From the IMG/VR virus record IMGVR_UViG_3300036770_007034, positions 1 to 64,000 of that record: DNA of 64,000 bases. One strand, 5' to 3'. The notes under the pieces were generated by a model. That model was given only the letters and a program-made list of their open reading frames with translations. It had not been told where the DNA came from and ran no database searches. Both the position numbers and the translations under genes were made by a program. This document shows, piece by piece, positions 7,410 to 60,535 of the stretch; the first letter of the stretch is position 1, and each line of letters begins with the position of its first letter. This DNA is from a virus.

Positions 7410-7417
7410 TATTTATG
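7410..7417 (-). promoter_or_regulatory. T4-type late promoter (CATAAATA) for tape-measure gene
   Basis: Minus-strand CATAAATATAG: seven of eight positions match TATAAATA. It lies 28 bases before the tape-measure start at 7382, the spacing seen for other good copies here (16365, 24065). It occupies the 46-base divergent gap shared with gp26, for which no plus-strand equivalent was found. Confidence 0.75.
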
Positions 7418-42775: not shown

Positions 42776-42778
42776 ATA
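42771..42778 (+). promoter_or_regulatory. T4-type late promoter (CATAAATA) for tail fibre
   Basis: CATAAATATG overlaps the TAA of the preceding gene and lies 57 bases before the fibre ATG at 42828. A second element follows at 42796, so the fibre gene appears to have tandem late promoters. Confidence 0.75.
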
Positions 42779-45391: not shown

Positions 45392-45413
45392 AAAAGGGCC
45401 TCAGGGCCCTTTT
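45392..45413 (+). terminator. Strong intrinsic terminator ending the structural module
   Basis: AAAAGGGCC and GGCCCTTTT form a perfect 9-bp stem around TCAG, followed by GTTTT. The A run on the other side makes it potentially bidirectional. It separates virion genes from the accessory operon. Confidence 0.9.
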
Positions 45414-45432
45414 GTTTTGCTACATACTCTGT

Positions 45433-45438
45433 TATAAT
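45433..45438 (+). promoter_or_regulatory. Consensus -10 box of the accessory operon
   Basis: TATAAT ends five bases before the ATG at 45444, so the predicted start is at or next to the ATG, giving a leaderless message. The region 15-17 bases upstream (TTGTTT) is a poor -35. Its location after the terminator makes it the only visible promoter for the genes from 45444 to 59806. Confidence 0.5.
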
Positions 45439-45443
45439 GGAGT

Positions 45444-45758
45444 ATGAACTTGGATCCAGAACAAATAGTCAAAGAGATCAAAAGCCGTTTTGATCATGCC
45501 ACGCAGAAGAAACTGCTCCGCGAAAAATATCACTCTAAGATGACCTTCGCCCATGCTGGCGGTATGTGGAAAGCCGGTCCGGAGTTGCTGACATTACTGC
45601 ATGCTTGCCCAGTAGAGGATTCTGTAGTGATCGAAGACCTCTATGGCAATCCTGTAAAGATCAACCCATTGGAGCTACAGCATCTTGCACATGGTCGCTG
45701 GCAAGAGCAGATGACTGCCTGGTTGTGCGAACTTGAAGAGTTGAGCCGTAATCGATGA
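45444..45758 (+). CDS. Conserved phage protein of unknown function, 104 residues
   Basis: MNLDPEQIVKEIKSRFDHAT, then FAHAGGMWKAGPELLTLLH and VVIEDLYGNPVKINPLEL, and a Trp-rich end (RWQEQMTAWLCELEEL). From memory similar small proteins are widespread in marine T4-like phages, with no known function. First gene of the accessory operon, apparently leaderless; it overlaps the next gene by ATGA. Confidence 0.75.
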   Translation: MNLDPEQIVKEIKSRFDHATQKKLLREKYHSKMTFAHAGGMWKAGPELLTLLHACPVEDSVVIEDLYGNPVKINPLELQHLAHGRWQEQMTAWLCELEELSRNR

Positions 45759-46576
45759 CCCGAGGCGCAGTACTGTTTGCTTTCAACAATGATCGCGTGG
45801 ACTACGTGAGCCAAGCGCAATGGTCTGCACCTCGCATCAATCGTCATCTAGGATTGCCTGTGACCTTGGTAACAGATGTCATGCCTGATGATGTTAGTAT
45901 GTTTGATCAAGTGATTATCCGTGAAAGTCGCAGTGGCGGTACTAGGAAATATGATCACATGAATGCTGACTCATCCGCTAACTGGTATAACCGCGGTCGA
46001 TGTTCGGCCTATGATGTTACTCCGTATGACGAGACGTTGTTGCTAGACACAGATTACATAGTAAGTTCCAGTCAGCTGTTGGCGTTGTTCAATGCTGACA
46101 AAGATATCCTATGCCATCGATACGTACTAGATGTCACTGACCGAAGAAACTTTGCCAGTGATACTAGATTCGGTGATGTAGAATTTCCCATGTGGTGGGC
46201 CACAGTCGTGTACTTCCGCAAGAGCAAGGCGGCCCAATCTGTGTTTGATATGATGCGCATGATCGAAACTAATTGGTATCATTACAGTCGTATCTATAAA
46301 TTCAATCAAGATCTCTATCGCAACGACTATGCTATCAGCATCGCACTGAACACTGTGTACGGACATTTGCCTGACGCTGTGCCCAGCATACCCTGGCCTT
46401 TGTTCACAGCGTTTTATGATGTATATCTCAATCAATTAGATGATGATCGATTCCAACTCAATTACGTTCGCATGGCCGATCATCAAGAACGCCATCAGCG
46501 CATGATATTGGCAGACTGCGACCTTCATGTAATGAACAAACCCGACCTAGGAAAGATCTGTGGCAGTAGAATTTGA
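45755..46576 (+). CDS. GT-A-fold glycosyltransferase-like protein
   Basis: A 273-residue soluble protein. The N-terminal GAVLFAFNNDRVDYVSQAQW and LGLPVTLVTD fit the first strands of a nucleotide-sugar-binding Rossmann-like domain; LLLDTDYIV near residues 90-98 supplies the D-x-D metal/sugar-nucleotide motif; MWWATVVYFRKS and a following NDYAISIAL region fit GT8-like enzymes. Predicted to transfer a sugar from a nucleotide donor; acceptor unknown. It overlaps the next gene, which starts with GTG. Confidence 0.65.
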   Translation: MTRGAVLFAFNNDRVDYVSQAQWSAPRINRHLGLPVTLVTDVMPDDVSMFDQVIIRESRSGGTRKYDHMNADSSANWYNRGRCSAYDVTPYDETLLLDTDYIVSSSQLLALFNADKDILCHRYVLDVTDRRNFASDTRFGDVEFPMWWATVVYFRKSKAAQSVFDMMRMIETNWYHYSRIYKFNQDLYRNDYAISIALNTVYGHLPDAVPSIPWPLFTAFYDVYLNQLDDDRFQLNYVRMADHQERHQRMILADCDLHVMNKPDLGKICGSRI

Positions 46577-47378
46577 ACGCGGCTATCTCATCATAGCACA
46601 GAATACTGATGCCACTGACTACATGGCCTGTGCTCGCGCATTGGCACGCAGTTTGCGTTGGCACATGCCCGACTGCAAGATATGTTTGGTCACTGATACT
46701 CCAGAGAGTGATCCGGTATTTGACATAGTCCGCCCGTTGCCGTTTGGAGATCAAAAAGGATGGGCCAATGACTGGCAAGTGTTCGCAGCCACACCATTCC
46801 GAGAAACCATCAAGCTAGAAGCAGACATGATAGTGACCAATGATATTAGCCACTGGTGGGCATGGTTTGAACATCGAGACGTAGTGATCAGTCATGGCAT
46901 GAGGAACTATCTCAATGAGTCCAGCGAGTGTCGTGCTTATCGGCGCATGTTTGATGACAACGATCTACCAGATGTCTACAATGCCATCACGTATTGGAGG
47001 CTCAGCCGCACTGCCGCTGAGTTCTGGCAGCTGGTGCGCACATTCTTTGAGCAGTGGTCCACAGTAAGGCAGACACTCAAATACTGCGACAATGTACCGG
47101 CTAATACAGACATGATCTATGCCATGGTGGCCAAGTACATGGGCACAGAACTAGTGACTCTGCCCGCGGCCTGGCCCACGATCACGCACATGAAACCTGC
47201 TGTGAATTACCTAAAGACAGATGCACGTCCATGGAACGATGAATTCGTCTGGGAATTAGTGTCCGGAGATTTCCGTATCAACACAGTATCGCAACAAGAC
47301 ATCGTGCATTATCAAGAAAAAGCATTTGCTAAACCATTAGAGGAACATTATGGACGCCTTCTGGCAAGCCGTCGCTGA
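46560..47378 (+). CDS. GT-A-fold glycosyltransferase-like protein
   Basis: A 272-residue protein starting at GTG (46560), MAVEFERGYLIIAQNTDATD. The pattern ACARALARSLRWHMPDCKIC, CLVTDTPESD, KLEADMIVTND (a variant D-x-D, EAD) and PANTDMIYAMVAKYMG resembles GT8/nucleotide-diphospho-sugar transferases. It is distantly similar in plan to the preceding gene and may have arisen by duplication. Donor and acceptor are unknown. Overlaps both neighbours. Confidence 0.6.
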   Translation: MAVEFERGYLIIAQNTDATDYMACARALARSLRWHMPDCKICLVTDTPESDPVFDIVRPLPFGDQKGWANDWQVFAATPFRETIKLEADMIVTNDISHWWAWFEHRDVVISHGMRNYLNESSECRAYRRMFDDNDLPDVYNAITYWRLSRTAAEFWQLVRTFFEQWSTVRQTLKYCDNVPANTDMIYAMVAKYMGTELVTLPAAWPTITHMKPAVNYLKTDARPWNDEFVWELVSGDFRINTVSQQDIVHYQEKAFAKPLEEHYGRLLASRR

Positions 47379-47700
47379 ACACGATTGGGTTCAACCCGAG
47401 ATACGTCAGGAATTTCGATTGTACTATGATACCCAAGACGGTCGTGTGCTGTTTTACAGCATGGAAGATGTTCCTGGGGATTATCTAGTGATTGACCGAC
47501 ACACGTTCGAACTGCATCGATTTGATATCAAAGTCAAGGATGGTAAAATCATCCGAGTGAAACACCCTGCTAGTTGGAAATTGGTGCCAGCAGACTCTGG
47601 TGAATATGCTTGTCATCCTCAAGACATTACCCTAATAGTACCACCAGCATCGGCACAGAAACAATACTGGAAAGTGGAGACCACACATGAAGAAGATTGA
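47350..47700 (+). CDS. Hypothetical protein, 116 residues
   Basis: MDAFWQAVAEHDWVQPEIRQ, then FRLYYDTQDGRVLFYSMEDV and DRHTFELHRFDIKVKDGKI. AGGA five bases before the ATG marks the start. Small, beta-rich and soluble; I vaguely recall relatives in marine phages beside glycosyltransferase-like genes. No function can be given. It overlaps its neighbours by 29 and 14 bases. Confidence 0.7.
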   Translation: MDAFWQAVAEHDWVQPEIRQEFRLYYDTQDGRVLFYSMEDVPGDYLVIDRHTFELHRFDIKVKDGKIIRVKHPASWKLVPADSGEYACHPQDITLIVPPASAQKQYWKVETTHEED

Positions 47701-48616
47701 TGTAGCAGATCTAGACTGCATCTACTTGAGCTATGACGAACCTCAGAAAGAAGAGTTCTGGGTCAAGATACGAAACATGGTACCTTGGGCCAAACGAGTA
47801 GATGGCGTCAAAGGGTCAGATGCCGCACACAAGGCCGCTGCTGAGGCCAGCGAAACAGATCGCTTCGTCCTTATTGACGGAGACAATATTCCGCAAGAAA
47901 AGTTCTTCAATCTCACATTAGAGTTTCCAGATGAGAGCTGGGAGCAGGCTACGTTCCGTTGGCGAGCCCGCAATCACATCAATGGATTGATGTACGGCAA
48001 TGGTGGATTGAGTTCATGGACGCGAGACTTTGTGCTCAACATGAAAACACACGAAAACACTGACGGTAAAGATGAGACCGTGGTTGAGTTTTGTTTCGAT
48101 CCACTATACTGGCCCATGCACGATTGTTATAGCACTACCTACCCTAACGGATCACCTTTCCATGCCTGGCGTGCCGGCTTCCGAGAAGGCGTGAAGATGT
48201 GTTTAGATCGTGGCCGCAAACCTTCGGTATCGGAGTTCAAAGACAGTGTACACAAACGCAACTTTGATCATCTCACTATCTGGCATAATGTAGGATCTGA
48301 TGTAGAGAATGGGTTCTGGGCCATAGCTGGCGCCCGCCAAGGCACATATATGACCATGTTGAGCGATTGGGATTACAGAGAAGTACAGTGGTTTGATACC
48401 TTAGAGAAGATCTGGGAGTCCACAGTGGCCAATCAAGATCCAGCCGGGGTGATTGACTTCTACCACGAACCCTTGAGTACACGACTTGATTTACCCATGG
48501 CATTCATGCCTCCGTTCCAGAGCGCATTTTTCAAAGATCATTATCGTAGCAACTGGCACAACCGCGGAGTGATGACTCGAGAAATAGATGTGATAAGGCA
48601 GCAAGAAGGATGGTAA
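47687..48616 (+). CDS. Glycosyltransferase-like protein with IDGDN motif
   Basis: A 309-residue protein with GGAG before the ATG. DLDCIYLSYDEPQKEEFWVK, VKGSDAAHKAAAEA and FVLIDGDNIP (residues about 64-73) match a GT-A arrangement in which D-G-D binds metal and nucleotide sugar. HAWRAGFREGVKMCLDRG and LTIWHNVGSDVENGFWAI lie in the second half. Similar proteins occur, from memory, in marine phages without assigned substrate. Part of the overlapping operon. Confidence 0.6.
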   Translation: MKKIDVADLDCIYLSYDEPQKEEFWVKIRNMVPWAKRVDGVKGSDAAHKAAAEASETDRFVLIDGDNIPQEKFFNLTLEFPDESWEQATFRWRARNHINGLMYGNGGLSSWTRDFVLNMKTHENTDGKDETVVEFCFDPLYWPMHDCYSTTYPNGSPFHAWRAGFREGVKMCLDRGRKPSVSEFKDSVHKRNFDHLTIWHNVGSDVENGFWAIAGARQGTYMTMLSDWDYREVQWFDTLEKIWESTVANQDPAGVIDFYHEPLSTRLDLPMAFMPPFQSAFFKDHYRSNWHNRGVMTREIDVIRQQEGW

Positions 48617-49596
48617 ATGTCAGAGTGATATCCAGTGATTGCAAAGTTTGGAATCGAGATCAAGTCATCGTAGAAATCGGCCATGCTATGTCTATCAATG
48701 AAGATATTACTATAGATCTCATAAGCGAGGGTCCGTGTTTTACTTCGTTGGAACTGAGCGAGTCGATCTCTCTGATGAGATCGTTGTATGACTATCAAAA
48801 AGATATATCAGTAAAGACCTGTAATCTGTCTCAACAAAGATGCGACGGATTCCAATTTGATGTCCAACCTCCCACACATTTTATAAAGAATACCAAAGAT
48901 AAGTTATCTAAAAATACCCAGACAAAACATCTTACTAAAAAGTTTGGATTGTTTATTGGCAGATCTAATGCACCTCGACTTGATCTGGCCAGTTATATTT
49001 GGAAAAATCACAAAGAAGACACCGTGATGACCTATCATTTTGATACAGAGATAGACTATCACAGAAACAATATTGGATTAGATGACTTAGTCAGATGGCA
49101 AAACACCAAAGATTTGCTTGACGCAGTTGATTTGATAAAGTCATCGCCACTGAAGTTTGAGGAAGTGAGATATCCTATACTCATGGACCAGCATTGTGAT
49201 ATCAGTCGGTTGTCAAAAGATTTTTTGATAGAGGTAGTGTGCGAAACATATTATACCGGAACAACTTTTTTCCCTACAGAAAAAATATGGAGGCCGATCA
49301 TGTCCGGATCTCCGTTTATTGTGCAAGGACCGAGATATTTTTTGCACAAACTAAGAGATCTTGGATTCAAGACATTCGATAAATGGTGGGACGAAGGATA
49401 TGGCGAAGATCCAGCCGCCTGGCAAATAACAGAAATAAAAAAAGTGATAAGTCATATCGCTTCTTTTGATTACGACACTATACAAAAATGGTATCAGGAG
49501 ATGATTCCATTGTTGGATCATAATCGCAAAAGATTTTTAGAACTGAACAAAAAAGATTTATCTTCTATCTACAAGGATTTATCAAAGTATGATTGA
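48610..49596 (+). CDS. GT10-like glycosyltransferase family protein
   Basis: A 328-residue member of the family repeated five times here. The C-terminal signature is TGTTFFPTEKIWRPI, PFIVQGPRYFLHKL and GFKTFDKWWDEGY, preceded by the strand LIEVVCETYY. In GT10 fucosyltransferases a comparable E-N/T-x-x-x-D-Y-x-T-E-K block binds the nucleotide sugar, so a sugar-transfer role is inferred. The N-terminal domain (residues 1-170) is divergent and could hold the acceptor site. Lys/Ile-rich and more A/T-rich than its neighbours, which suggests a separate origin. Confidence 0.65.
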   Translation: MVNVRVISSDCKVWNRDQVIVEIGHAMSINEDITIDLISEGPCFTSLELSESISLMRSLYDYQKDISVKTCNLSQQRCDGFQFDVQPPTHFIKNTKDKLSKNTQTKHLTKKFGLFIGRSNAPRLDLASYIWKNHKEDTVMTYHFDTEIDYHRNNIGLDDLVRWQNTKDLLDAVDLIKSSPLKFEEVRYPILMDQHCDISRLSKDFLIEVVCETYYTGTTFFPTEKIWRPIMSGSPFIVQGPRYFLHKLRDLGFKTFDKWWDEGYGEDPAAWQITEIKKVISHIASFDYDTIQKWYQEMIPLLDHNRKRFLELNKKDLSSIYKDLSKYD

Positions 49597-51019
49597 TCAG
49601 AACAAAGGCGACGAAGTCGCGGCTGATTTCAAGTCTAAATTTCTCAGTGATGCTGAGATAATGAAACAACGTCTGGACTCGGTAAGTCCCAGTATGTGTC
49701 TAGCCAAATGGAAACAGGTCAGCCTTCATCTTACTACAGGACATACCAACTCCTGCTATCATCCCCCGTTGCATCGTATACGCATTGAGGATATACAGCG
49801 CGGTGGTATCGGACTTCACAATACTGAGCACAAGAAACAGCAACGGAAACTCATGATGGAAGGTACCAGGCCCTCTGAGTGCCAGTATTGCTGGAACATG
49901 GAAGACAACGGCAAGCTCAGTGATCGCCATTACCGGTCGGGCGAACCCTGGGCCGCGAAAGATTTTGAACGGATAGTCAGCGCAGATTGGAGCCAAGATG
50001 TTTTACCAAGTTATGTTGAAGTCAATTTTAGTCATGCTTGTAATCTCGCCTGTAGTTATTGCAGTCCTCAGTTTAGTAGCACGTGGCAACAGGAAGTTGA
50101 ACGGCATGGCAGCTACCCCACTTCGACGCCTCATAATGATCCCGATTATTTTCGCGGCGAGCGTCGCCCTATTCCTAGTCGTGAAGCAAATCCTTACCTA
50201 GAAGCTTTCTGGGAATGGTGGCCCACGCTGTATCCAGAACTTGAGCACTTCCGCATGACCGGTGGTGAGCCTATGATGGACAAGAACACCTTCCGGGTGT
50301 TTGATTATGTGCTGATGAACCCTAGTCCTAAACTGCATCTCAATGTCACGAGCAATTTCTCTGCAGATGAGAAACTGTGGCAACGCTACAAAGGCTATGT
50401 AAAGATGCTGTGCGACGGAGAAAAGATCGAACACTTCATGCAGTACGTGAGCCTTGACGGTTGGCTTGACAAAGCCGAATACATGCGCCACGGCCTGGAC
50501 TTTGGGTTGCTATGGAATCGAGTGAATGAGTTCTTGAGCGAGATACCCGGGCGTAGCAGTCTGACATTCATCATCACTATGAACAATCTGTCGGTGACAA
50601 GTTTTGAACAGCTCATGGTCGCTGTGCTGGGATTGAGACAGATCTATTCAAACACATATCAGCGGGTGTGGTTTGATACTCCTGTGCTCCGTACTCCCAG
50701 TTGGCAGAGCATGCAACTGTTGCCGGAGAGCTATGTAGAGAAACTGGAAGCTGTGTGGGTCTGGATGATGAAGAACATGGAGACCGAAGAAAAGCGTTTC
50801 AAAGGTTTCAAAGACTATGAACTACAACGTCTGGATAGAGATATCGCCTGGATGCGAGACGGACAGAAATTAGAGCCCGACTATATCAAACGGCAAAAAG
50901 CCGACTTCTATAGATTCTTTGCAGAGCATGACCGTCGTCGTGGTACTGATTTCCTAAAGACATTTCCTGAAATGAGTGCTTGGTGGGCAGAGTGTCAATA
51001 TCATGCCAACAACGATTGA
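49589..51019 (+). CDS. Twitch-domain radical SAM protein 1
   Basis: A 476-residue enzyme with two Fe-S regions. An N-terminal twitch-like part has Cys56 (TNSCYHPPLH) and Cys98/Cys101 (CQYCWNMED); the SAM cluster motif is Cys151/Cys155/Cys158 (SHACNLACSYC), followed by MTGGEPMM, the SAM-binding GGEP. I recognise the architecture as the N-terminal-twitch radical SAM group known from marine phages and bacteria; its reaction is unknown. The C-terminus (ADFYRFFAEHDRRRGTDFLK) matches that of the protein at 51985, so these two are close paralogues. A membrane-protein-like ORF is nested at 49998-50201 in the +1 frame. Confidence 0.88.
   Translation: MIDQNKGDEVAADFKSKFLSDAEIMKQRLDSVSPSMCLAKWKQVSLHLTTGHTNSCYHPPLHRIRIEDIQRGGIGLHNTEHKKQQRKLMMEGTRPSECQYCWNMEDNGKLSDRHYRSGEPWAAKDFERIVSADWSQDVLPSYVEVNFSHACNLACSYCSPQFSSTWQQEVERHGSYPTSTPHNDPDYFRGERRPIPSREANPYLEAFWEWWPTLYPELEHFRMTGGEPMMDKNTFRVFDYVLMNPSPKLHLNVTSNFSADEKLWQRYKGYVKMLCDGEKIEHFMQYVSLDGWLDKAEYMRHGLDFGLLWNRVNEFLSEIPGRSSLTFIITMNNLSVTSFEQLMVAVLGLRQIYSNTYQRVWFDTPVLRTPSWQSMQLLPESYVEKLEAVWVWMMKNMETEEKRFKGFKDYELQRLDRDIAWMRDGQKLEPDYIKRQKADFYRFFAEHDRRRGTDFLKTFPEMSAWWAECQYHANND
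49998..50201 (+). CDS. Candidate nested gene A: 67-residue two-pass membrane protein
   Basis: In the +1 frame of the radical SAM gene. GGAG (49989-49992) stands five bases before the ATG. The product has one hydrophobic helix at about residues 7-28 (MLKSILVMLVISPVVIAVLS), a basic loop RGNRKLNG, and a second helix at about 45-62 ending KQILT. Of the 28 radical SAM codons over the first helix, 19 end in T, against 6 of the 28 codons just after this ORF; T at that position creates hydrophobic codons in the +1 frame. Size and topology resemble class II holins, but any function is inference. Confidence 0.4.
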   Translation: MFYQVMLKSILVMLVISPVVIAVLSLVARGNRKLNGMAATPLRRLIMIPIIFAASVALFLVVKQILT

Positions 51020-51992
51020 TCCAGATGTAGTACTGAGCTACCTAAGTTCAAACATCACTGATGCAGACTGGCGTATAATCTCAGTGAGAACTTTGCTAGA
51101 GCAGTGGCCAGAGATAGAAAAACAATTATCTCAAGGTCAGATTACAGCGGTGGAGAAAACCGACGAAGGAGTGACTACACTTTGGCATATAGTGACCAAT
51201 GTCCAGTATGCTCCTTGGATCCGTTCCGGGCAACTACGACTAATAACTAGCAGTGATGCTGATTCCAGCATTTCAAATTTCAATGCCGAACATTTCCTAG
51301 CAGCCACGATCGGTAGCCAAGAAGTTCGTTTGCCGCTGACATATACCGATCAAGCAAGGCCTTATACTTTTCTTTTCCCTAACAGAAAGATAAGACCACA
51401 TCGTAGATATCTCATATTGGAATTACAAAAAAGAATGTTGCTGGATCGCGCTCTCTGGAGCTGCCTCAAAGGGCATAACACACAAGGACATCCAGAACAT
51501 ACTCGTGTTTATGCAGATGGAATCAGTATGCCAGTAAAGAAGCTGGATGAAGGATATGATCCAGCGATCGCACCGGACTGGATAGATGGTGTGATATATC
51601 CCCAACAGTATCAACACACTTGGTTTACATTGGTATCAGAAACTGCGTTCGAATATCCTTACAGTTTCCGTACTGAAAAAATCTGGAAACCCATACTAGC
51701 AGGACATCCATTCTTGGTTTGTGCCAACACAGGATTCTATAAAGATCTGCGAAACCTGGGATTCAGGACATTTGATCGGTTGATTGATGAGTCATTTGAT
51801 AGTATAATAGATGGTAAGGATCGTCTAGATCGCTTGATTGATACTGTGGCCTGGTTATGCCAACAAGATCTTGCCGAATTCTGGCGAGCCTCGCGAGAAG
51901 TGTGTTTATATAATCACCAACGTGCTTTGGAACTACATAATAGTCTTGCTCAAAATTTTACTTCCCGACTACTGGAATTCATGAATGCCTAG
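51003..51992 (+). CDS. GT10-like glycosyltransferase family protein
   Basis: The longest frame begins at a GTG (50976), but ATG at 51003, MPTTIDPDVVLSYLSSNITD, is preferred. About 329 residues. Family blocks: YTFLFPNRKIRPHRRYLILE, SETAFEYPYSFRTEKIWKPI, PFLVCANTGFYKDLRNLGF and RTFDRLIDESFDSI. It lies between two radical SAM paralogues and overlaps both, hinting that the radical SAM product and the transferase act on the same molecule. Catalytic assignment is by family resemblance only. Confidence 0.65.
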   Translation: MPTTIDPDVVLSYLSSNITDADWRIISVRTLLEQWPEIEKQLSQGQITAVEKTDEGVTTLWHIVTNVQYAPWIRSGQLRLITSSDADSSISNFNAEHFLAATIGSQEVRLPLTYTDQARPYTFLFPNRKIRPHRRYLILELQKRMLLDRALWSCLKGHNTQGHPEHTRVYADGISMPVKKLDEGYDPAIAPDWIDGVIYPQQYQHTWFTLVSETAFEYPYSFRTEKIWKPILAGHPFLVCANTGFYKDLRNLGFRTFDRLIDESFDSIIDGKDRLDRLIDTVAWLCQQDLAEFWRASREVCLYNHQRALELHNSLAQNFTSRLLEFMNA

Positions 51993-53337
51993 ATTACACA
52001 ACGAAACAGACTTGGAATACAAGCGCCGAGTGATTGATATCAAATCGGAAAGTTTCTGCGGAGCCAAATGGTACAATGCCACGATCTGGCTAGGATCAGG
52101 TATGACTACCAGTTGCCATCACCCGCTGCCACACAAAGTAGAGATCTCTGAAGTTGAAACCAACCCCAAAGCATTACACAACACAGCTCGTAAAAAAGAA
52201 GAGCGCAGACAGATGCAGGCAGGGGAACGTCCCGCAGGATGCGAATATTGTTGGAAGATCGAAGACATAGGTCGAGATAACATATCAGATCGTGTATACA
52301 AGACTGTAATCTACTCAGACGAGGAACTCAATGAAGCTTATCTATTACCCCCCTCTGCGGACACAGATCTACGCACTCTTGAGATCAGTTTCGACCGTAC
52401 TTGTCAATTGGCTTGTAGCTACTGCAATCCTGCTTTCTCTAGCACTTGGGTCAAAGACATTAGAAACAATGGACCATATACCCAGTTGGTCAGCGACGGT
52501 CGTAATCACTTCACTCATGATCATGACAGTGCTCAACTTTATCGATACGGTGAAGTCAATCCGTATGTTGAGGCATTTTTCCGCTGGTGGGAAACCGACC
52601 TACATAAGACGCTTAGAGAGCTACGGATCACCGGAGGAGAACCACTCATGTCCGGATACACATGGAAACTCCTAGACTGGTTCAAGGCTAATCAAGGTCG
52701 CAGCCAAACACGTCTAGCCATCAACTCAAATCTGGCCATGCCCACAGAAGATGTGCTACGATTGCTAGACCGCGCCGAAGGTATCACTCTAGACATCTAC
52801 ACTTCTAATGAAAGCATGCCCAACCATGCTGAATATATCCGTGATGGATTGAGTTGGGGCAATTGGATGAAGAACATGCACATGCTGGCCGGTAGCCGTA
52901 GATTGCGTGGACTACATGTGATGTGTACTATCAACGCATTGTGCTTGGAATCACTTACAGAATTTTTAGATGTGATGATCAAGTTCAAAGAACAGTATGG
53001 AAGAGACTTTCCTACTTTTACTTTGAACATCCTACGTTTTCCCAGCTTCCAATCACCATTGGTATTGCCGGACAATATACGTCAGCGTCGGTGCGAAAAA
53101 TTACAAAAATGGTTCGATGATAACAAACACAATGAACTATTGCATCAGATGGAACTGAATCAAGTGCAGAGATTGATCGACTATCTCGATGTAGTCAAGA
53201 CTCCGCATAGCGATACCTTTGATCGTGCGAGCCTGCACAATGATTTCAAACGATTCTACGAACAGTATGACCAGCGTCGAGACAAATCTTTCCGAGATAC
53301 GTTTCCAGGTCTATCAGGATGGTACGACAGCCTATGA
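51985..53337 (+). CDS. Twitch-domain radical SAM protein 2
   Basis: A 450-residue paralogue of protein 1. N-terminal twitch Cys44 (TTSCHHPLPH) and Cys86/Cys89 (CEYCWKIED); SAM cluster Cys140/Cys144/Cys147 (DRTCQLACSYC); ITGGEPLM. It shares FSSTWxxx, NPYxEAFxxWW and the C-terminal YEQYDQRRDKSFRDTFP pattern with the protein at 49589. Reaction unknown. A second nested hydrophobic ORF lies over its cluster motif at 52331-52675. Its ATG overlaps the end of the previous gene. Confidence 0.88.
   Translation: MPRLHNETDLEYKRRVIDIKSESFCGAKWYNATIWLGSGMTTSCHHPLPHKVEISEVETNPKALHNTARKKEERRQMQAGERPAGCEYCWKIEDIGRDNISDRVYKTVIYSDEELNEAYLLPPSADTDLRTLEISFDRTCQLACSYCNPAFSSTWVKDIRNNGPYTQLVSDGRNHFTHDHDSAQLYRYGEVNPYVEAFFRWWETDLHKTLRELRITGGEPLMSGYTWKLLDWFKANQGRSQTRLAINSNLAMPTEDVLRLLDRAEGITLDIYTSNESMPNHAEYIRDGLSWGNWMKNMHMLAGSRRLRGLHVMCTINALCLESLTEFLDVMIKFKEQYGRDFPTFTLNILRFPSFQSPLVLPDNIRQRRCEKLQKWFDDNKHNELLHQMELNQVQRLIDYLDVVKTPHSDTFDRASLHNDFKRFYEQYDQRRDKSFRDTFPGLSGWYDSL
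52331..52675 (+). CDS. Candidate nested gene B: 114-residue two-pass membrane protein
   Basis: Also in the +1 frame of its host gene. GAGGA (52321-52325) is five bases before the ATG. Hydrophobic segments lie at about residues 24-40 (VLVNWLVATAILLSLAL) and 52-68 (ATVVITSLMIMTVLNFI), followed by a basic then polar C-terminal tail of about 45 residues (SIRMLRHFSAGGKPTYIRRL). Twenty of 25 host codons under the first segment end in a pyrimidine, partly forced by the Cys/Tyr/Asn-rich motif. It overlaps the same part of the radical SAM fold as nested gene A, but the two proteins are not obviously alike. Confidence 0.35.
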   Translation: MKLIYYPPLRTQIYALLRSVSTVLVNWLVATAILLSLALGSKTLETMDHIPSWSATVVITSLMIMTVLNFIDTVKSIRMLRHFSAGGKPTYIRRLESYGSPEENHSCPDTHGNS

Positions 53338-54671
53338 ACAAAGACAATAATCTCAGTAATTACAACTGGAAAGATCGTGTGCCCACTTATATCGGCCTCG
53401 ATCAGCTCTCTGAGCAACAACAACACAGGTTGATGCACAGCGACAGCTTCTGCATGTTGCCGTGGATCCACTTACACGCATGGCCCGACGGCAGAGCTTA
53501 TCCGTGCTGTTTAGGTAATGCTTCATTTCCTGTAGGCGACTTCAAACAAAAGTCCATGCGCGAGATCTGGAACGACACAGACATGCGAGAGATGCGTCTG
53601 AACATGTTGAACGATCGTCCGTGCCGCCAATGTAGTGATTGCTATGAGCAAGAGTCTGCTGGATTCGCCAGCATGCGCAACAACTCCAACAAGAACTTTG
53701 GCCAGCACATTGAATTGATTGACGAAACTCTGCCGGATGGATCTTTGCCAGACATGCGCCTGCATTACTGGGACGTGAGATTCTCCAACATCTGCAATCT
53801 CAAATGCCGTAGCTGTGGGTCGATCTTTTCTAGCCGTTGGTATGACGATGATGTCAAGCTCTGGGGCAAAGCTCTGCGGCCTCGTGTACAGTTCGCTGGA
53901 CGTCATGAAGAAGACGTGTGGGAGCAGATGCAAGAACACATTCCACATCTGGACCAGATCTACTTTGCTGGTGGCGAACCTCTGATCATGGAAGAGCATA
54001 ATCGTATCCTCAAGCTGTTGATTGAAAAAGGCAACACCAAAGTCAGATTGATCTATAATACCAATCTCACTGAATTGAAATACAAACGTGAAAGCGTGCT
54101 AGAGCTTTGGAAACATTTTCCACATGTATGCGTAGCTGCCAGCCTTGATGACATGGGTCCGCGAGCCGAAGTCATACGGTCGGGCACTGACTGGGCACAA
54201 GTAGAACAAAACATCCGCGATCTCAAACGCGAGTGCCCACATATAGATTTCATGATCTCTCCTACTTTGAGCATGATGAACATCTGGCACTTCGTTGATT
54301 TTCACAAGTACATGATCGAGCAAGGATTCATCGAACCCAAGGATCTCAATGTGAACATCCTTCAAGGACCACGTGGCTATCGCATAGACATGTTGCCAGC
54401 AGACATAAAGCAACGATTCCGCGCCCAGTTCGAAGAACACATTGAATGGCTGCAGGACAAGGATCCTATCCATCGAGCCATCGGCGGGTTTGAAGCTGCC
54501 ATAAACTTCATGATGGCGCAGGACAACAGCGAATTGCTACCGGAGTTCTGGGAAACAGTGAATGAACTGGACTGGGCCCGCAGTGAATCATTGCTAGAAG
54601 TGGTGCCAGAACTTGAAGAGATTGTGCAATATCGTCCAGCATCCACTAGGATACCTCTCAAGAAAAAATGA
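53334..54671 (+). CDS. Twitch-domain radical SAM protein 3
   Basis: Frame open from 53319; ATG at 53334 (ATGA overlap with the previous stop) is preferred. About 445 residues. The N-terminal twitch region has Cys40 (FCMLPWIHLHAW), Cys58/59 (YPCCLGN), then FKQKSMREIWND, and Cys97/100/103 (CRQCSDCYEQE). SAM cluster Cys154/158/161 (SNICNLKCRSC), FAGGEPLI. This is the second subtype of the array (CxLPW...CCL), distinct from proteins 1 and 2. Substrate unknown; the twitch cluster suggests a bound substrate or peptide close to the auxiliary cluster. Confidence 0.88.
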   Translation: MNKDNNLSNYNWKDRVPTYIGLDQLSEQQQHRLMHSDSFCMLPWIHLHAWPDGRAYPCCLGNASFPVGDFKQKSMREIWNDTDMREMRLNMLNDRPCRQCSDCYEQESAGFASMRNNSNKNFGQHIELIDETLPDGSLPDMRLHYWDVRFSNICNLKCRSCGSIFSSRWYDDDVKLWGKALRPRVQFAGRHEEDVWEQMQEHIPHLDQIYFAGGEPLIMEEHNRILKLLIEKGNTKVRLIYNTNLTELKYKRESVLELWKHFPHVCVAASLDDMGPRAEVIRSGTDWAQVEQNIRDLKRECPHIDFMISPTLSMMNIWHFVDFHKYMIEQGFIEPKDLNVNILQGPRGYRIDMLPADIKQRFRAQFEEHIEWLQDKDPIHRAIGGFEAAINFMMAQDNSELLPEFWETVNELDWARSESLLEVVPELEEIVQYRPASTRIPLKKK

Positions 54672-55879
54672 AAATACCCCACGATAAATTCTGTGTGTTG
54701 CCTTGGGTCAGCTTAGAGGCCAGTCCCATTGGTACAGTGAGACCTTGCTGTCTGGCCATAGACGAGATAGTGGACGATCAAGGAGAAAAATTCCGCCTGG
54801 CAGGATCTTCGTTTGATGCCATACAGAACAGTCAGCACATGACTACCCTTCGGCAGGAGTTCCTTGATGGTAAACAGCCGCAGACTTGTCGCAGATGCTG
54901 GCAAGAAGAACGAGCTGGTCGCACATCAAAGCGTATGCATACATTAGATCGTCTCAAGCATATGATAGATGATCGTCCATGGACCCAGGATGCCAAACCC
55001 TTGATGTTCTTAGATCTCAAGCTAGGCAACATCTGCAATCTCAAGTGCCGTATTTGCGGGTCGTGGTCTAGTTCTACATTCGCTACAGAAGAACTGAATT
55101 TTATCATCGATCGCGAAGAAAAGAAAACGAGTTTTCATTATCAGATGTTGCGTGATGGTGCTTGGCCCCGCAACAGCGATAACTTCTGGCATCAGCTAGA
55201 TTCTGCCATGAGCGAAGTGCGCTACATTGAGTTCACTGGCGGCGAACCTTTTATGATCCGTGAGCACTTTGATCTTCTGCGCAGACTAGTGGATCGAGGA
55301 TATGCGCATCAGATAGAAATACACTACAATACCAACGGCACACAGTACCCTGCTGAAGCCGAAGATATCTGGCGCCATTTCCGGCACGTGGAGATAGCAT
55401 TCTCTATTGACGATGTGGGAGAGAGGTTTGAATACCAGCGTACCAATGCCGGCTGGGCGGAAGTGAATGAAAACATAGAACTCTTCCGTCGCATGAGATC
55501 ACGCAATCGCAATATCACTCTGCAGGTGTGCTGTACAATCAACGTGTTCAATGTGATGTATCTCGAAGATGTGGCTAACTGGATAGTCGAACAAGACTTT
55601 GATTTCATCTACTGGAACATGCTACATGATGCCTATTACTTCAGCATCGGAACTCTGCCAGAAAAGGCCAAACGTCTGGCCCAGCAGAGATTAGAACAAG
55701 CTCGCATACCAGAACAGTTCCGCGACGAATTTGCCAGGATCATTGACTTTATGAACAACGGTGTGAGTCTAGATGGCAAGCTGTTGCGCATCAAAGCCCA
55801 AGACCTTGATTTCAAAAGGAAAGAGAGTCTGTCTACCGTGATGCCTGAACTGGCATCTTCCATAGACTATGAAGCCTGA
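54668..55879 (+). CDS. Twitch-domain radical SAM protein 4
   Basis: A 403-residue paralogue of protein 3. Cys9 (FCVLPWVSLEASP), Cys27/28 (RPCCLAID), Cys74/77 (CRRCWQEE) form the twitch set; SAM cluster Cys123/127/130 (GNICNLKCRIC); FTGGEPFM. The middle carries IEIHYNTNGTQYP and VEIAFSIDDVGERFEYQR, the strand order of the radical SAM barrel. It starts by ATGA overlap with protein 3. Confidence 0.88.
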   Translation: MKIPHDKFCVLPWVSLEASPIGTVRPCCLAIDEIVDDQGEKFRLAGSSFDAIQNSQHMTTLRQEFLDGKQPQTCRRCWQEERAGRTSKRMHTLDRLKHMIDDRPWTQDAKPLMFLDLKLGNICNLKCRICGSWSSSTFATEELNFIIDREEKKTSFHYQMLRDGAWPRNSDNFWHQLDSAMSEVRYIEFTGGEPFMIREHFDLLRRLVDRGYAHQIEIHYNTNGTQYPAEAEDIWRHFRHVEIAFSIDDVGERFEYQRTNAGWAEVNENIELFRRMRSRNRNITLQVCCTINVFNVMYLEDVANWIVEQDFDFIYWNMLHDAYYFSIGTLPEKAKRLAQQRLEQARIPEQFRDEFARIIDFMNNGVSLDGKLLRIKAQDLDFKRKESLSTVMPELASSIDYEA

Positions 55880-57164
55880 CACACTATGTATGGCTCCCTG
55901 GACTCACACTTATCTGAGTCCTCAGACCGAGCGCCGTATGTGCTGTGCCAGCCGCGAGCCTGCGCAGAACTTCCAGCAGTACATTGATACCAAGGCCGGC
56001 ACGGGTCAATATATCCCCATCACCTTAGAAGAACATTGGAACGGCGATCACATGCGATCGGTGCGCAGGCGTATGATGGCAGGAGAGACTTTACCAGAGT
56101 GCGATGTGTGCAATAGTAAATTATTGAACACCGATGTGTACCGCAGTTATTTCAATGGGTTGTTTGGACACAAGTATGAAGAAGCCATGCGCCAGACCGA
56201 TCTAGATGGGCGCACTGACATGAAGCCGGTGAGCTGGGACTATCGCTTCTCGAATCTCTGCAATTTCAAATGTCGTATGTGCGGCGATATGTTGAGCAGT
56301 AGTTGGGAAAGCGAACAGCGCCAACACAACATGATCAACTGGGCGGATCCCAAAAACAATTGGATGATTCCGTCAGTGCGTCGTGAAATAAGTAAGTTCC
56401 AAGACACCCAGATCGAAGCTGAGTTTGCAGAAGCAGTGGAAGAACACCGTGTGGAAGAGATCTACTGGGTAGGCGGAGAACCGCTAATGTATGAGCAACA
56501 CTGGCGATACATGCGACGTATCGTCGAGCTGGGCGATGGACCAAGACTATATGCTAGATATAATACTAATCTCAGTCGCGTGGATTATCGTGGCGTCAAT
56601 CTTTATAGTGATATCCTTCGACATGTTAGGGACTGGCAGATCTGCGCCAGTCTCGACGGCACAGGAGCCACAGGAGAATACATCCGTACTGGACTTGACT
56701 ATGATCAATGGCGAGAAAACTTTGCCCGAGGACTGGACATATCCCGCCATCGTAGGCAGATGCGCATCGACTTCACACTCACTCTACCTGGACTATTTGA
56801 AGTGGGAAGAATACAAGAACTCGCCGACGAATTCCAAGTCGACATCCTAGCCAAGGTGATCTTTGCTTTCAGTCCAGATATCGTCATGAGTCCTTTGGCC
56901 TTGCCTAGGTCAGTGCTAGATCGCAAGATCGACGAAGTACTCCGATCAGTATCTAGTCCGGCACTGCGAGATGTATTGGTGCAACTGAAGAATCGTCCCA
57001 CGTTTGAGGAACAATGGCCGGATCAATGGAAAGCAGGCTTGATCAAAGGAAAGCAACGCATAAAAACTCTCGAAAGCATACGTTCAGATACATACACATT
57101 CGAAGATATAATAAAGGAAGATACAGACATCTATGAGTGGTGGCAAAATATTAGATCAGATTGA
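55869..57164 (+). CDS. Twitch-domain radical SAM protein 5
   Basis: A 431-residue protein of the same subtype as 3 and 4. Cys7 (LCMAPWTHTYLSP), Cys25/26 (RRMCCAS), Cys78/81 (CDVCNSK); SAM cluster Cys131/135/138 (SNLCNFKCRMC); WVGGEPLM. Its last 30 bases overlap the next gene. A nested +1-frame ORF with a membrane segment lies at 56491-56850. Confidence 0.88.
   Translation: MKPDTLCMAPWTHTYLSPQTERRMCCASREPAQNFQQYIDTKAGTGQYIPITLEEHWNGDHMRSVRRRMMAGETLPECDVCNSKLLNTDVYRSYFNGLFGHKYEEAMRQTDLDGRTDMKPVSWDYRFSNLCNFKCRMCGDMLSSSWESEQRQHNMINWADPKNNWMIPSVRREISKFQDTQIEAEFAEAVEEHRVEEIYWVGGEPLMYEQHWRYMRRIVELGDGPRLYARYNTNLSRVDYRGVNLYSDILRHVRDWQICASLDGTGATGEYIRTGLDYDQWRENFARGLDISRHRRQMRIDFTLTLPGLFEVGRIQELADEFQVDILAKVIFAFSPDIVMSPLALPRSVLDRKIDEVLRSVSSPALRDVLVQLKNRPTFEEQWPDQWKAGLIKGKQRIKTLESIRSDTYTFEDIIKEDTDIYEWWQNIRSD
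56491..56850 (+). CDS. Candidate nested gene C: 119-residue single-pass membrane protein
   Basis: In the +1 frame of radical SAM protein 5. One strong hydrophobic segment at about residues 21-44 (MLDIILISVAWIIVASIFIV) follows a polar N-terminus; the rest is polar and acidic. The only upstream GGAG is 12 bases from the ATG, so the start is weakly supported. Host codons under the segment are T-rich (18 of 32). Weaker than nested genes A and D. Confidence 0.22.
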   Translation: MSNTGDTCDVSSSWAMDQDYMLDIILISVAWIIVASIFIVISFDMLGTGRSAPVSTAQEPQENTSVLDLTMINGEKTLPEDWTYPAIVGRCASTSHSLYLDYLKWEEYKNSPTNSKSTS

Positions 57165-58227
57165 GATCGAACTCAGGGATTTTGATACCAAATCAAAATC
57201 CAAGATCTATATCAATGTTTATGAAAACACTTTGTCAGAAAAGTGGCTGTCTTCTCTTGATGTACTGCTGAAAAATCAGTACCATCTGGAAAAAAATTAT
57301 TGTTTTTTTGGCTTCGCCGACAACAAAAGAGATGGCGAATATATCTTGGATGCTGTAAATTCCAGCATCGACGCTATCAATCGGGCCGACATTGGCTACC
57401 ACATCGACGATCATTTTGACTTGTCTACCACGCTGTATGATGGGCCCGTGGGGGAAGGTCTTCCTGGACTGAAACTCATCCATGATCGTATGAATTGGCT
57501 GCATAGGTATTTCGAAGATCTACAAGGAGTGAGCGGCCAGATATCTCAGTTCGCAAAAAAAGCTGATCCAGCAACACAATGGCACATCCGTCAACTCAAT
57601 TTGTTGTGCCATGAGTTTGAATCCTGGGCACTGAGTTATAGGAACAAGATAGTGGCTCCGCAATGGCAACGACCCAGCCAACTGATGTGTTGGCTGAACG
57701 CCCCGAGATTTGTGTTAGAACAAGACGACTATGAATTATTTGGCATTGACACTATAAACAGGCCGCTGGGCGGAGTATTTGTCGGCGTCAACAAAGCCAT
57801 CGGTAAACACCACTGGGAAGTGTTCAATGACGAAGGACGCGACAGCAGGATAGATGAATTGGTATCTACTACGCTGAGGAGCCAGACCGAAGCTGCCGGA
57901 GATTTTGACATCGAATGGGCAAACAATCCCGGCGAATTCAAATGGCAGAAAATCAAGATCGCAGAATTCCGTCAGTGGCTGATAGACAACGGCTTCGACC
58001 CCGAAGACAAGAGCCTCACGATAGGTCATCCGCAAGTGGGGCAAGTCAACTTAGAGCGCAGTTTCAAAACCACAGATTACACGACCATATGGAACACGCT
58101 CAATCAACAGTTGGACGTATGGTCGATCAAGACCAGCAATAATTATGCGGTCTATGATTATCATTGGAGCGACCCTGATTTTCAACAACGACAGATCGAT
58201 ATATTATCAAAAGGAAGACAATCATGA
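57133..58227 (+). CDS. Unrecognised 364-residue protein
   Basis: MSGGKILDQIEIELRDFDTK; YINVYENTLSEKWLSSLDVL; a middle part with HDRMNWLHRYFEDLQGVSGQ; MCWLNAPRFVLEQDDYELFG; GGVFVGVNKAIGKHHWEVFN; and a C-terminal NNYAVYDYHWSDPDFQQR. Soluble, mixed alpha/beta, no obvious active-site motif, though conserved-looking Trp, His and Asp occur in the second half. I have a weak memory of similar proteins beside twitch radical SAM genes in marine viruses. It overlaps the preceding gene by 32 bases and the 33-residue peptide gene by four, so it belongs to the same operon. Confidence 0.75.
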   Translation: MSGGKILDQIEIELRDFDTKSKSKIYINVYENTLSEKWLSSLDVLLKNQYHLEKNYCFFGFADNKRDGEYILDAVNSSIDAINRADIGYHIDDHFDLSTTLYDGPVGEGLPGLKLIHDRMNWLHRYFEDLQGVSGQISQFAKKADPATQWHIRQLNLLCHEFESWALSYRNKIVAPQWQRPSQLMCWLNAPRFVLEQDDYELFGIDTINRPLGGVFVGVNKAIGKHHWEVFNDEGRDSRIDELVSTTLRSQTEAAGDFDIEWANNPGEFKWQKIKIAEFRQWLIDNGFDPEDKSLTIGHPQVGQVNLERSFKTTDYTTIWNTLNQQLDVWSIKTSNNYAVYDYHWSDPDFQQRQIDILSKGRQS

Positions 58228-58325
58228 AATGGATACGCAATCTTATAAACAAAATCAAGTTAGAAATACGCTATCGCAAGAAGCTAAAAGAACTGCGCAA
58301 ACGAGATCCTTTTATCTATAAATGA
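58224..58325 (+). CDS. 33-residue highly basic peptide
   Basis: Reads MKWIRNLINKIKLEIRYRKK and ends KRDPFIYK. About a third of the residues are Lys or Arg, and the N-terminal half could form an amphipathic helix. AGGAAG precedes the ATG, the start overlaps the previous stop by ATGA, and the stop overlaps the carbamoyltransferase ATG. I recall small proteins ending RDPFIYK in marine myoviruses. Could be a membrane-binding peptide, a nucleic-acid binder or even a substrate of the radical SAM enzymes; none of these is shown. Confidence 0.65.
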   Translation: MKWIRNLINKIKLEIRYRKKLKELRKRDPFIYK

Positions 58326-59806
58326 AACACATACTAGGTATCAGTGCTGGGTTCCATGACGCGGCTGTGAGTGTGGTACGCGAAGATGGAGAGATCGTTT
58401 TCGCTGGGCATTCTGAACGCTACAGCAAGATCAAGAATGATCCCACGATACATCCTGATCTCTTGAAGGAATGTTGCGATTATGAGTTTGACACCGTGGC
58501 GTTCTACGAGCGTCCGTGGATGCACAACTATCAGCAATGGCGTAGTGGACAAAAGGCCTATGGTTCCTGGACTACCCGCCAAGCTATCCGTCAGCATCTA
58601 GGCGAGTGGTATCAACATCCTGCACGCCGAGAAGTCAGCTTCCGGCATCATCTCAGCCATGCTGCCGCAGGATTCCAGACGAGTACATTTGACAATGCCG
58701 CTGTTGTAGTGATCGATGCCATTGGAGAGATGGATACTATCTCCATCTATTCTGCCGGATACTCACACGACGGCAACGCTCAATATAATCTCGTATGGCG
58801 TCAAGGATACCCACACAGCATTGGGTTGTTTTACTCAGCGATAACAAAAGCCGTGGGACTCAAACCCATGGAGGAAGAATACATCACCATGGGCATGGCT
58901 GCTTATGGTACCGACCTTGGCACTGCCTGGATGCGAGATCAGTTTGTCGAGGATGTTGAAACAGCCCGGTTCAAACAAAACTTGCACATCGGATTTGACG
59001 AATACGATCTGAGTTTCACCCATGCCGAAGACATTGCCGCGTCTGCACAAAGACTCACAGAAGAGCTGATCATGAACATCATACGTCGAGCCAGGCAAAT
59101 GATCAACAGCGACAATCTCGTCTACATGGGAGGTGTAGCACTCAACTGTGTAGCGAACACTAGACTAGGACAGATATATGACAAAATATGGATCATGCCG
59201 AACCCGGGCGATGCGGGTTCCAGCCTTGGCGCAGCCGCGCTGGCTTACAGGAAACGGCTTTGCTGGCGCGATGCTTTTCTTGGCCACGATATTGCTGGCC
59301 CTTACCCTGTTCGCGACATTCTTGATCGTCTTATTACCCATCGCATTGTTGGTGTGGCTAGTGGGCGTAGTGAATTCGGTCCACGAGCACTTGGAAACCG
59401 AAGTTTATTGGCCGATCCCCGAGGACCAGACATCAAAGATCGAGTCAACGAAATCAAAAGACGACAAAAATTCCGTCCCTTCGCACCCGTCATACTAGAA
59501 GAAGTGGCTGATGATTATTTTGAAATGCCCCAAGGTTGGGCACGTAGTGATTACATGCAGATGGTAGCCAGAGTACGCAGACCGGATCTTTATCCTGCTA
59601 TCACACATGCAGATGGTACAGCCCGAGTACAGACCGTCCCTCCAGGAGATAGTGGTATCCGTAGATTACTCGAAGAGTGGTATGTACTGACAGGATGTCC
59701 AATGTTGCTCAATACTTCGTTGAACATTCGAGGCGAACCCATGGTCGATGATCGTGCTGATGCTGATCGATTTGAAAAACTATATGGCGTGGCCGTCTGT
59801 AGCTAA
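58322..59806 (+). CDS. NodU/CmcH-type carbamoyltransferase
   Basis: A 494-residue enzyme predicted to transfer carbamoyl from carbamoyl phosphate via carbamoyl-AMP to a hydroxyl, usually on a sugar or antibiotic. Evidence: LGISAGFHDAAVSVV with His12 at the N-terminus, HHLSHAAAGF (His109/110/113), NPGDAGSSLGAAALAY, and the YrdC-like C-terminal block SEFGPRALGNRSLLADPRG and RRQKFRPFAPVI. Cellular relatives have about 550-600 residues; this compact form lacks some loop sequence. Its end overlaps the convergent SGNH gene by 27 bases. A hydrophobic ORF is nested at 59178-59498. Confidence 0.93.
   Translation: MKHILGISAGFHDAAVSVVREDGEIVFAGHSERYSKIKNDPTIHPDLLKECCDYEFDTVAFYERPWMHNYQQWRSGQKAYGSWTTRQAIRQHLGEWYQHPARREVSFRHHLSHAAAGFQTSTFDNAAVVVIDAIGEMDTISIYSAGYSHDGNAQYNLVWRQGYPHSIGLFYSAITKAVGLKPMEEEYITMGMAAYGTDLGTAWMRDQFVEDVETARFKQNLHIGFDEYDLSFTHAEDIAASAQRLTEELIMNIIRRARQMINSDNLVYMGGVALNCVANTRLGQIYDKIWIMPNPGDAGSSLGAAALAYRKRLCWRDAFLGHDIAGPYPVRDILDRLITHRIVGVASGRSEFGPRALGNRSLLADPRGPDIKDRVNEIKRRQKFRPFAPVILEEVADDYFEMPQGWARSDYMQMVARVRRPDLYPAITHADGTARVQTVPPGDSGIRRLLEEWYVLTGCPMLLNTSLNIRGEPMVDDRADADRFEKLYGVAVCS
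59178..59498 (+). CDS. Candidate nested gene D: 106-residue membrane protein
   Basis: In the +1 frame of the carbamoyltransferase. AGGA (59167-59170) lies seven bases before the ATG. A 34-residue hydrophobic stretch at about 31-64 (MLFLATILLALTLFATFLIV and onward) is followed by a charged, Ser/Lys-rich tail of about 40 residues (TSKIESTKSKDDKNS). Of the 32 carbamoyltransferase codons beneath the hydrophobic part, 22 end in T and none in A, and all five Ile codons are ATT, unlike nearby sequence where ATC and ATA are common. This is the strongest codon-bias case of the four. Confidence 0.4.
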   Translation: MTKYGSCRTRAMRVPALAQPRWLTGNGFAGAMLFLATILLALTLFATFLIVLLPIALLVWLVGVVNSVHEHLETEVYWPIPEDQTSKIESTKSKDDKNSVPSHPSY

Positions 59807-60535
59807 TTGTTTTTCTGTCAGATACGGAATAAGATAATCCCGAGTCCAATGCAAGTATCCTGCAGGATTAGGATGACCATCGATTTCTTGCATGTTTGAT
59901 GCCCTAGCAACATCGCCTAAATAATCAATTTTGTCGATCATGGATTTTATGTTGGCACCGATAGAAACTTGACATAGATCTGGTGTAGGATCCATCCAGC
60001 TAGTAAAAATAAATTGGAATTTTTTCTGCTTCAAGTAAGATTCTAGTGCGATAATTTTCAAACAACTTTCATATATCTGAGCTGTTGGGGAAATAATTTT
60101 TTTGTACTGACGACAAAGTTTATCTATTTCCGAATTACCGTCGACTTGATTGAAGATAGACATAGTCGACCATACATCGTCGAACCTATAAGCTCCCATA
60201 TGATGCCAATCATGTACTATTTCTTTTTCAGTGATCACATCTGTTCTTGTAAGGCCAGACCACATCACGATTACTAGAGTATCATCGGGGTTGATTTCAC
60301 GATTAGTTTCAATTTCATTGATTACGCTATTGAAGATGTGATTGCTTCCGGCTCCGCTTTGGCTGCAATCATATACTTCGTCAAAGTTTGCTAAGTCTCT
60401 AAGATAGTAGGGCCAACTGCAAGCCACTGAATCATGATTATTGAAAGTAAAACTACATCCACTGACCAAAAGTTTTCTATACTTTGATTGATGGGTCGGT
60501 GCGAAGTCTCTCTGAATAATTCTTTTTTTCGCCAT
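59780..60535 (-). CDS. SGNH-hydrolase-like esterase
   Basis: Start MAKKRIIQRDFAPTHQSKYR at 60535 (TAATG overlap with the amidinotransferase stop); about 251 residues. The catalytic set is visible: Ser28 in VSGCSFTF, Gly/Asn in SGAGSNHIF (Asn65), and Asp219-x-His221 in DGHPNPAGY. SGNH enzymes deacylate or acylate sugars and lipids; in this context a tailoring role on a glycan is plausible. It converges on the carbamoyltransferase with a 27-base overlap. No signal peptide. Confidence 0.8.
   Translation of the reverse strand: MAKKRIIQRDFAPTHQSKYRKLLVSGCSFTFNNHDSVACSWPYYLRDLANFDEVYDCSQSGAGSNHIFNSVINEIETNREINPDDTLVIVMWSGLTRTDVITEKEIVHDWHHMGAYRFDDVWSTMSIFNQVDGNSEIDKLCRQYKKIISPTAQIYESCLKIIALESYLKQKKFQFIFTSWMDPTPDLCQVSIGANIKSMIDKIDYLGDVARASNMQEIDGHPNPAGYLHWTRDYLIPYLTEKQLATDGHAI

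Follow-up and report, generated by a model that had tools for sequence, protein, structure and literature searches.

A conserved cassette of five twitch radical SAM enzymes and transferase-like genes in jumbo T4-related phages: a possible role in glycan tailoring

The window analysed here covers the initial 64 kb of a virus record of 87,059 bp and contains five consecutive radical SAM genes, RS1 to RS5. The real unit exceeds this array: tail genes are followed by a terminator and a sigma-70-type promoter and then by 13 overlapping genes. Glycan tailoring is its best-supported function. We estimate at roughly 0.5 the probability that the cassette is a soluble operon whose products assemble a glycan and then modify it through radical chemistry.

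The portal protein is most similar (46–53%) to those of the jumbo T4-superfamily phages Phosso, Atu_ph07, PA5oct, CBB, and GAP32. By this sequence criterion, the record is a fragment of a jumbo T4 relative. The earlier note had assigned the window to a T4-like phage, which is right at the level of the superfamily, but the phage is not an ordinary T4-like one.

The radical SAM array and its relatives

All five array genes lie on the plus strand. RS1 (49589–51019, 302 bits), RS2 (51985–53337, 295 bits), RS3 (53334–54671, alternatively starting at 53319, 419 bits), RS4 (54668–55879, 340 bits), and RS5 (55869–57164, 292 bits) match the NCBIfam model NF033640 (N_Twi_rSAM) end to end, with whole-protein scores above its curated cut-off of 170 bits. 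A sixth copy is located at 78,650–79,870 on the minus strand of the same record, beyond the window, and related records of 262–374 kb have 8–15 N_Twi_rSAM matches apiece. When RS1–RS5 and the sixth copy were aligned, the twitch cysteines C45, C64, C105, and C108 as well as C159xxxC163xxC166 and GGEP (protein 3 numbering) were invariant. Neighboring genes in and around the array overlap by 8, 20, 8, 4, 4, 11, and 32 bases. The number and position of the genes, their motifs, and the overlaps thus agree with the earlier note. The six copies are mutually distant, with 19–32% identity relative to the first aligned sequence. As their alignment was too divergent for scanning, single proteins were used as seeds.

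The predicted models of RS1 (pLDDT 90.4) and RS4 (pLDDT 85.9) both contain the barrel. Comparison of these models with the PDB gave no full-length match; the partial matches are scattered over viperin, SkfB, CteB, anSME, BlsE, and MoaA, with query-normalised TM-scores of 0.38 or less. By sequence and fold, the nearest characterised relatives mix peptide modifiers (SkfB, CteB, anSME) with sugar and nucleotide enzymes (BlsE, viperin, MoaA). Orthologue comparison revealed additional near-invariant cysteines, namely C275 and C469 in RS1, C320 in RS2, C288 in RS4, and C259 in RS5. In the neomycin epimerase NeoN, Cys249 is the hydrogen donor (PMC10991966). The additional cysteines could be hydrogen donors of the same kind, which we regard as a lead only.

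With RS1, RS3, and RS5 as seeds, three scans of viral contigs yielded 215 loci, many of them on contigs of 315–374 kb. Overall, the cassette was seen on hundreds of aquatic contigs, and the isolate collection searched gave only distant relatives. Searches of INPHARED with RS1, RS3, and three flanking proteins returned distant matches or none. Among the 164 environmental loci holding RS1 and RS5, 143 have the complete set of five with order and strand unchanged, and an RS4 orthologue was not found in 19. Marine contigs binned with bacterial genomes have a variant order, in which RS5 is ahead of RS4. Across the loci, the seven cluster cysteines of the RS orthologues are at least 99% conserved and GGEP is 100% conserved. 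Orthologues from different phages share 56–83% identity, or 45–81% in the case of RS3. The median identity to the window copy is 69% for RS1, 66% for RS2, 50% for RS3, 64% for RS4, and 73% for RS5. RS3, RS4, and the gene closing the overlapping run (G7) each fall into two identity classes, and RS3 occurs as two alleles among the phages.

A tree of 127 sequences, built with a quick method and containing several long branches, places RS1 and RS2 in starred clades, each with its marine orthologues, which are sisters of one another. RS5 forms one clade, RS4 is separate, and RS3 clusters with marine orthologues as well as with bacterial sequences. Because the tree keeps the RS groups apart, each with its own orthologues, the array appears from the sequences to be an old assembly of distinct enzymes, and recent tandem duplication is ruled out. 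The two subtypes proposed in the earlier note (proteins 1–2 and 3–5) accordingly hold only in part, as the tree unites proteins 1 and 2 as sisters but gives no single clade for 3, 4, and 5. Its term expansion, if taken as duplication, does not apply, as each copy represents an old, separate orthologous group.

The larger unit and its transcription signals

Except where noted, the features described below are on the plus strand. The tail region upstream includes a gene for a tail-fibre-like virion protein (S74; 42828–44261) with weak PHROG matches to tail fibre and virion structural proteins. It is preceded by the late-promoter-like motif CATAAATA (42771–42778). The next gene (44395–45372) encodes T44, a Ser/Thr-rich protein (32% S+T) and our candidate for the glycan acceptor; it precedes the cassette in 63 of 68 loci. 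A rho-independent terminator (45392–45413) closes the tail operon. It is followed by TATAAT (45433–45438), the -10 hexamer of the predicted sigma-70-type promoter of the cassette, just 5' of the start codon.

These signals recur in the relatives. A terminator-like hairpin together with TA[TC]AAT is present in 66 of 134 unique gaps, compared with 0.6% of coding windows. In aligned cases, TTTAC is located 17 bases upstream of the hexamer, which is a sigma-70-like arrangement. The first base of the hexamer precedes the start codon by a median of 12 bases, a spacing that points to an almost leaderless transcript. By analogy with T4, YATAAATA is presumably a late promoter; of 43 unique loci, 33 have it some 53 bp ahead of the tail-fibre gene. 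This motif was absent from the 150 bp before RS1–RS5, G45a, G46b, G7, and the carbamoyltransferase gene, and occurred once in 129 cases before the 47687 gene. Since a conserved terminator and sigma-70-type promoter precede the cassette and YATAAATA is almost absent before its genes, the cassette is probably transcribed by a host-type RNA polymerase, apart from the tail genes. Late co-transcription with the tail genes had been considered because of the gene overlaps and CATAAATA, and is opposed by the same terminator and promoter. A consensus TTGAC-N-TATAAT site also precedes the ORF at 15394–16275, which we take for a gp55-like sigma factor; no family match confirmed this assignment.

The thirteen consecutive genes from 45444 to 58227 overlap by 4–32 bases. 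The first (45444–45758) encodes a small protein of 104 amino acids. It is followed by a GT-A-like protein with an invariant DxD (45755–46576), a probable glycosyltransferase by motif, and by a probable GT8-type glycosyltransferase (46560–47378) with a profile match to glycogenin (E=0.0015). A conserved 116-aa protein (47350–47700) belongs to the cassette of one clade. The GT-A-like conserved protein at 47687–48616 has a DGDN motif and is a core marker of the system. Variable GT10-motif proteins are encoded before RS1 (48610–49596, with TEKIWRP) and between RS1 and RS2 (51000–51992). G7 (57133–58227), a conserved protein of no assigned family, closes the run. PDB profile searches gave nothing significant for 45755–46576, 47687–48616, the GT10-motif genes, or G7. 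The earlier note had described a GT10-like gene within the array, and one gene is indeed present at 51000–51992. Its GT10 nature is a motif resemblance, as neither this gene nor its relatives matched a GT10 family profile in Pfam or among the PDB profiles.

Downstream of the run lies a NodU/TobZ-type carbamoyltransferase gene (58322–59806; Carbam_trans N and C domains, E values of 1e-36 and 7e-49). On the minus strand, 60535–61563 encodes a clade-specific neighbor which the earlier note had called amidinotransferase-like; it matched only PHROG 25854, of unknown function, and no family match confirms the label. DegT aminotransferase and epimerase genes are also nearby. An Fe-S A-type carrier is encoded in 12 of 15 related records, the fragment containing the window not being among them.

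The unit has a constant gene order, namely tail genes, small gene, 45755-type, 46560-type, (47350-type), 47687-type, RS1–RS5, G7, and carbamoyltransferase. Between these genes stand interchangeable GT10-motif genes and, in some loci, additional radical SAM genes. In loci with sufficient flank, which had been picked by radical SAM similarity, the three flanking genes for probable glycosyltransferases were present in 68 of 68, G7 in 77 of 77, and the carbamoyltransferase gene in 76 of 77. The amidinotransferase-like gene was found in 13 of 47 loci. Of the two companions whose co-occurrence with the array the earlier note had proposed to check, the carbamoyltransferase is therefore core and the amidinotransferase is not. 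Neither arrays lacking transferase genes nor copies with degenerate cysteines, which the earlier note had named as evidence against its reading, were found among the loci. Because of the way these loci had been picked, we ran a further search with the 47687 gene as the only seed. Twitch radical SAM genes followed downstream in all 67 loci with flank; the full set of five was present in 27 of 56 and a different set elsewhere. The scans from the RS seeds and from the 47687 seed share many contigs and related phages, so that the counts do not represent independent events. Over 1496 locus pairs, the median identity was 0.65–0.67 for RS1, RS2, and the 47687 gene versus 0.38 for the neighboring tail-region protein, and in 1471 of these pairs RS1 exceeded the adjacent T44 in conservation.

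Glycan tailoring and alternative readings

The enzymes are non-redundant and ordered, retain all their cluster cysteines, and always come with transferase-like genes, which gives good support to the multi-enzyme modification pathway proposed in the earlier note. The steps may act in succession on one substrate. We infer a glycan as the substrate. RS1–RS5 would then form the tailoring part of a soluble glycan-modification operon, which is probably expressed early. The GT8-like enzyme, the two GT-A-like proteins, and the exchangeable GT10-motif enzymes would act in the host cytoplasm and assemble a short glycan on an acceptor. RS1–RS5 would carry out different radical steps on its sugars, for which dehydrogenation, epimerisation, and dehydration are candidates, and the carbamoyltransferase would cap a hydroxyl. 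No membrane-like segment was found in any cassette protein, hence the acceptor should be cytoplasmic. It is likely a phage tail protein encoded just upstream, particularly the Ser/Thr-rich T44.

Evidence from other genomes points in the same direction. In Bacteroidota and Bdellovibrionota MAGs, N_Twi_rSAM genes adjoin carbamoyltransferase and sugar-nucleotide genes. Bacterial loci with N_Twi_rSAM and the same carbamoyltransferase type also contain ABC transporter, NAD epimerase, UDP-sugar dehydrogenase, SIS, and CTP-transferase genes, and the 47687-type gene is found beside N_Twi_rSAM genes in bacteria too. The nearest isolate is Vibrio phage K566, whose genome interleaves two GT8 genes and one GT4-like gene with four genes for twitch radical SAM proteins (20–27% identity). 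Together with these bacterial glycan loci and the K566 arrangement, we count in favor of glycan tailoring the conserved RS order and cysteines, the constant glycosyltransferase trio with carbamoyltransferase and G7, the radical SAM genes behind the 47687 gene in all loci of the search seeded with it, the absence of membrane segments, the glycogenin match, the conservation of RS1 above T44, and the A-type carrier. Against it, no N_Twi_rSAM member has a known reaction and the characterised relatives include peptide modifiers. The GT10-motif genes, 45755–46576, and 47687–48616 have no significant family match, and tail-fibre loci of T4-like phages are general cargo hotspots. The cassette's own promoter and the preceding terminator, which set it apart from the late tail operon, weaken the link to virion assembly. 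A more far-reaching version is rather doubtful: giant T4-related phages might use up to five consecutive radical reactions to turn an ordinary tail-protein glycan into a sugar structure made by no known organism, from a host-type promoter and before tail assembly.

The same promoter would suit an operon which modifies the lipopolysaccharide or capsule of the infected host, for instance to keep out other phages. The bacterial relatives are located in surface-glycan loci, and such a role has been proposed for the glycosyltransferases of pelagimyophage host-recognition clusters (PMC7029224). However, the cassette has no membrane glycosyltransferase, flippase, or exporter, and its linkage to the same tail genes is tight and has lasted over divergent phages. 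We consider host surface remodelling unlikely.

Less likely still is a RiPP-like mechanism in which amino acid side chains of a protein or peptide, from phage or host, are modified directly by radical chemistry and the glycosyltransferases act independently. SkfB, CteB, and anSME among the neighbors would fit such chemistry, but the radical SAM genes are always accompanied by genes for probable glycosyltransferases. The sole small gene at the head of the run, 45444–45758, was rejected as a RiPP precursor, as it is conserved over its whole length, whereas such a precursor would combine a conserved leader with a variable core.

It is improbable that the pathway makes a soluble natural product or a derivative of a nucleotide sugar, for instance a compound resembling an aminoglycoside. 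The nearby amidinotransferase-like, DegT aminotransferase, epimerase, and carbamoyltransferase genes recall aminocyclitol pathways, but the first of these is restricted to a minority of loci, and several glycosyltransferase-like genes suggest a polymer or glycoconjugate.

Hypermodification of DNA bases on a hydroxymethylated pyrimidine is very unlikely: known phage DNA-modification pathways do use radical SAM enzymes, glycosyltransferases, and carbamoyltransferases, but a single thymidylate synthase was present in every one of 15 records (ThyX in 12, ThyA in 3), which leaves no spare hydroxymethylase, and no Tet_JBP or HMUDK match was found, with controls for both families being silent as well.

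Comparison with known systems

The chemistry of N_Twi_rSAM proteins is unassigned, and an ordered unit with constant transferase-like partners offers a concrete way to find it, with K566 as an isolate carrying a smaller version of the unit. If the acceptor is part of the virion, radical-tailored glycans would join the ways in which phages alter their own surface. RS1–RS5 share with the N_Twi_rSAM family (NF033640) the N-terminal twitch, CxxxCxxC, GGEP, and the whole-model match. In contrast to this family, which has no assigned reaction, they form five separate orthologous groups that occur as a fixed set. With the SPASM/twitch enzymes BlsE, MoaA, SkfB, CteB, and anSME, they have the radical SAM barrel in common, and most of these enzymes also have an auxiliary cluster. 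In the RS proteins, however, the twitch domain precedes the barrel, and the fold matches are partial.

Radical SAM enrichment in T4-like phages has already been published, whereas the fixed cassette appears undescribed in the open-licence literature searched. The T4-like marine phage TARA_ERS488813_N000010 was reported to have an A-type carrier besides 12 radical SAM genes (Nishimura 2017, PMC5332604). Like the present phages, it is a T4-like environmental phage with many radical SAM genes and an Fe-S carrier. Its description, in the excerpt used here, consists of gene counts, whereas an ordered cassette with transferase companions characterises the present loci. The pelagimyophage host recognition cluster, an island on the tail-fibre side with glycosyltransferases and radical SAM cassettes, resembles the present unit in its position next to tail-fibre genes and in this combination of enzymes (PMC7029224). 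That cluster is hypervariable and non-syntenic, whereas the present unit is strongly conserved in order and sequence.

Transcription signals

The gap 5' of the cassette of 13 overlapping genes (window 45392-45443) holds a conserved terminator and a sigma-70-type promoter. As the end of the -10 hexamer is 5 bases from the ATG, a leaderless cassette transcript is suggested. Elsewhere, the motif CATAAATA occurs 5 times in the window against 1.9 expected (at 7410, 16365, 24065, 42014, and 42771). All five matches are on the sense strand, directly 5' of or close to the start of structural-looking ORFs, and are candidate late promoters.

Further genes of the virus and its relatives

A single tail-region protein of 4835 aa is encoded at window 27499-42006 (+). 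On the minus strand, a further radical SAM protein, which lacks the N-terminal twitch domain (10663-11625), adjoins the gp46-like gene. The gp46-like and gp47-like genes are separated by an insertion of two ORFs (13282-14368, minus strand), one of which contains the GT10-like motif. Each of the 15 virus records G000-G014 carries exactly one thymidylate synthase, ThyX in 12 and ThyA in 3, and none combines the two.

N-terminal-twitch radical SAM genes outside the window

A second metabolic block is located at 73841-80466 of the window's own record (G000; loci L008 and L009). It encodes a sixth N_Twi_rSAM protein, a class III aminotransferase, and a sodium:solute symporter, together with proteins that look like asparagine synthase and oxygenases, the latter two types being without Pfam support. 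In bacteria, N_Twi_rSAM genes form long runs at two loci of Bdellovibrionia MAGs (L245 and L284), with about nine or more in the L245 run.
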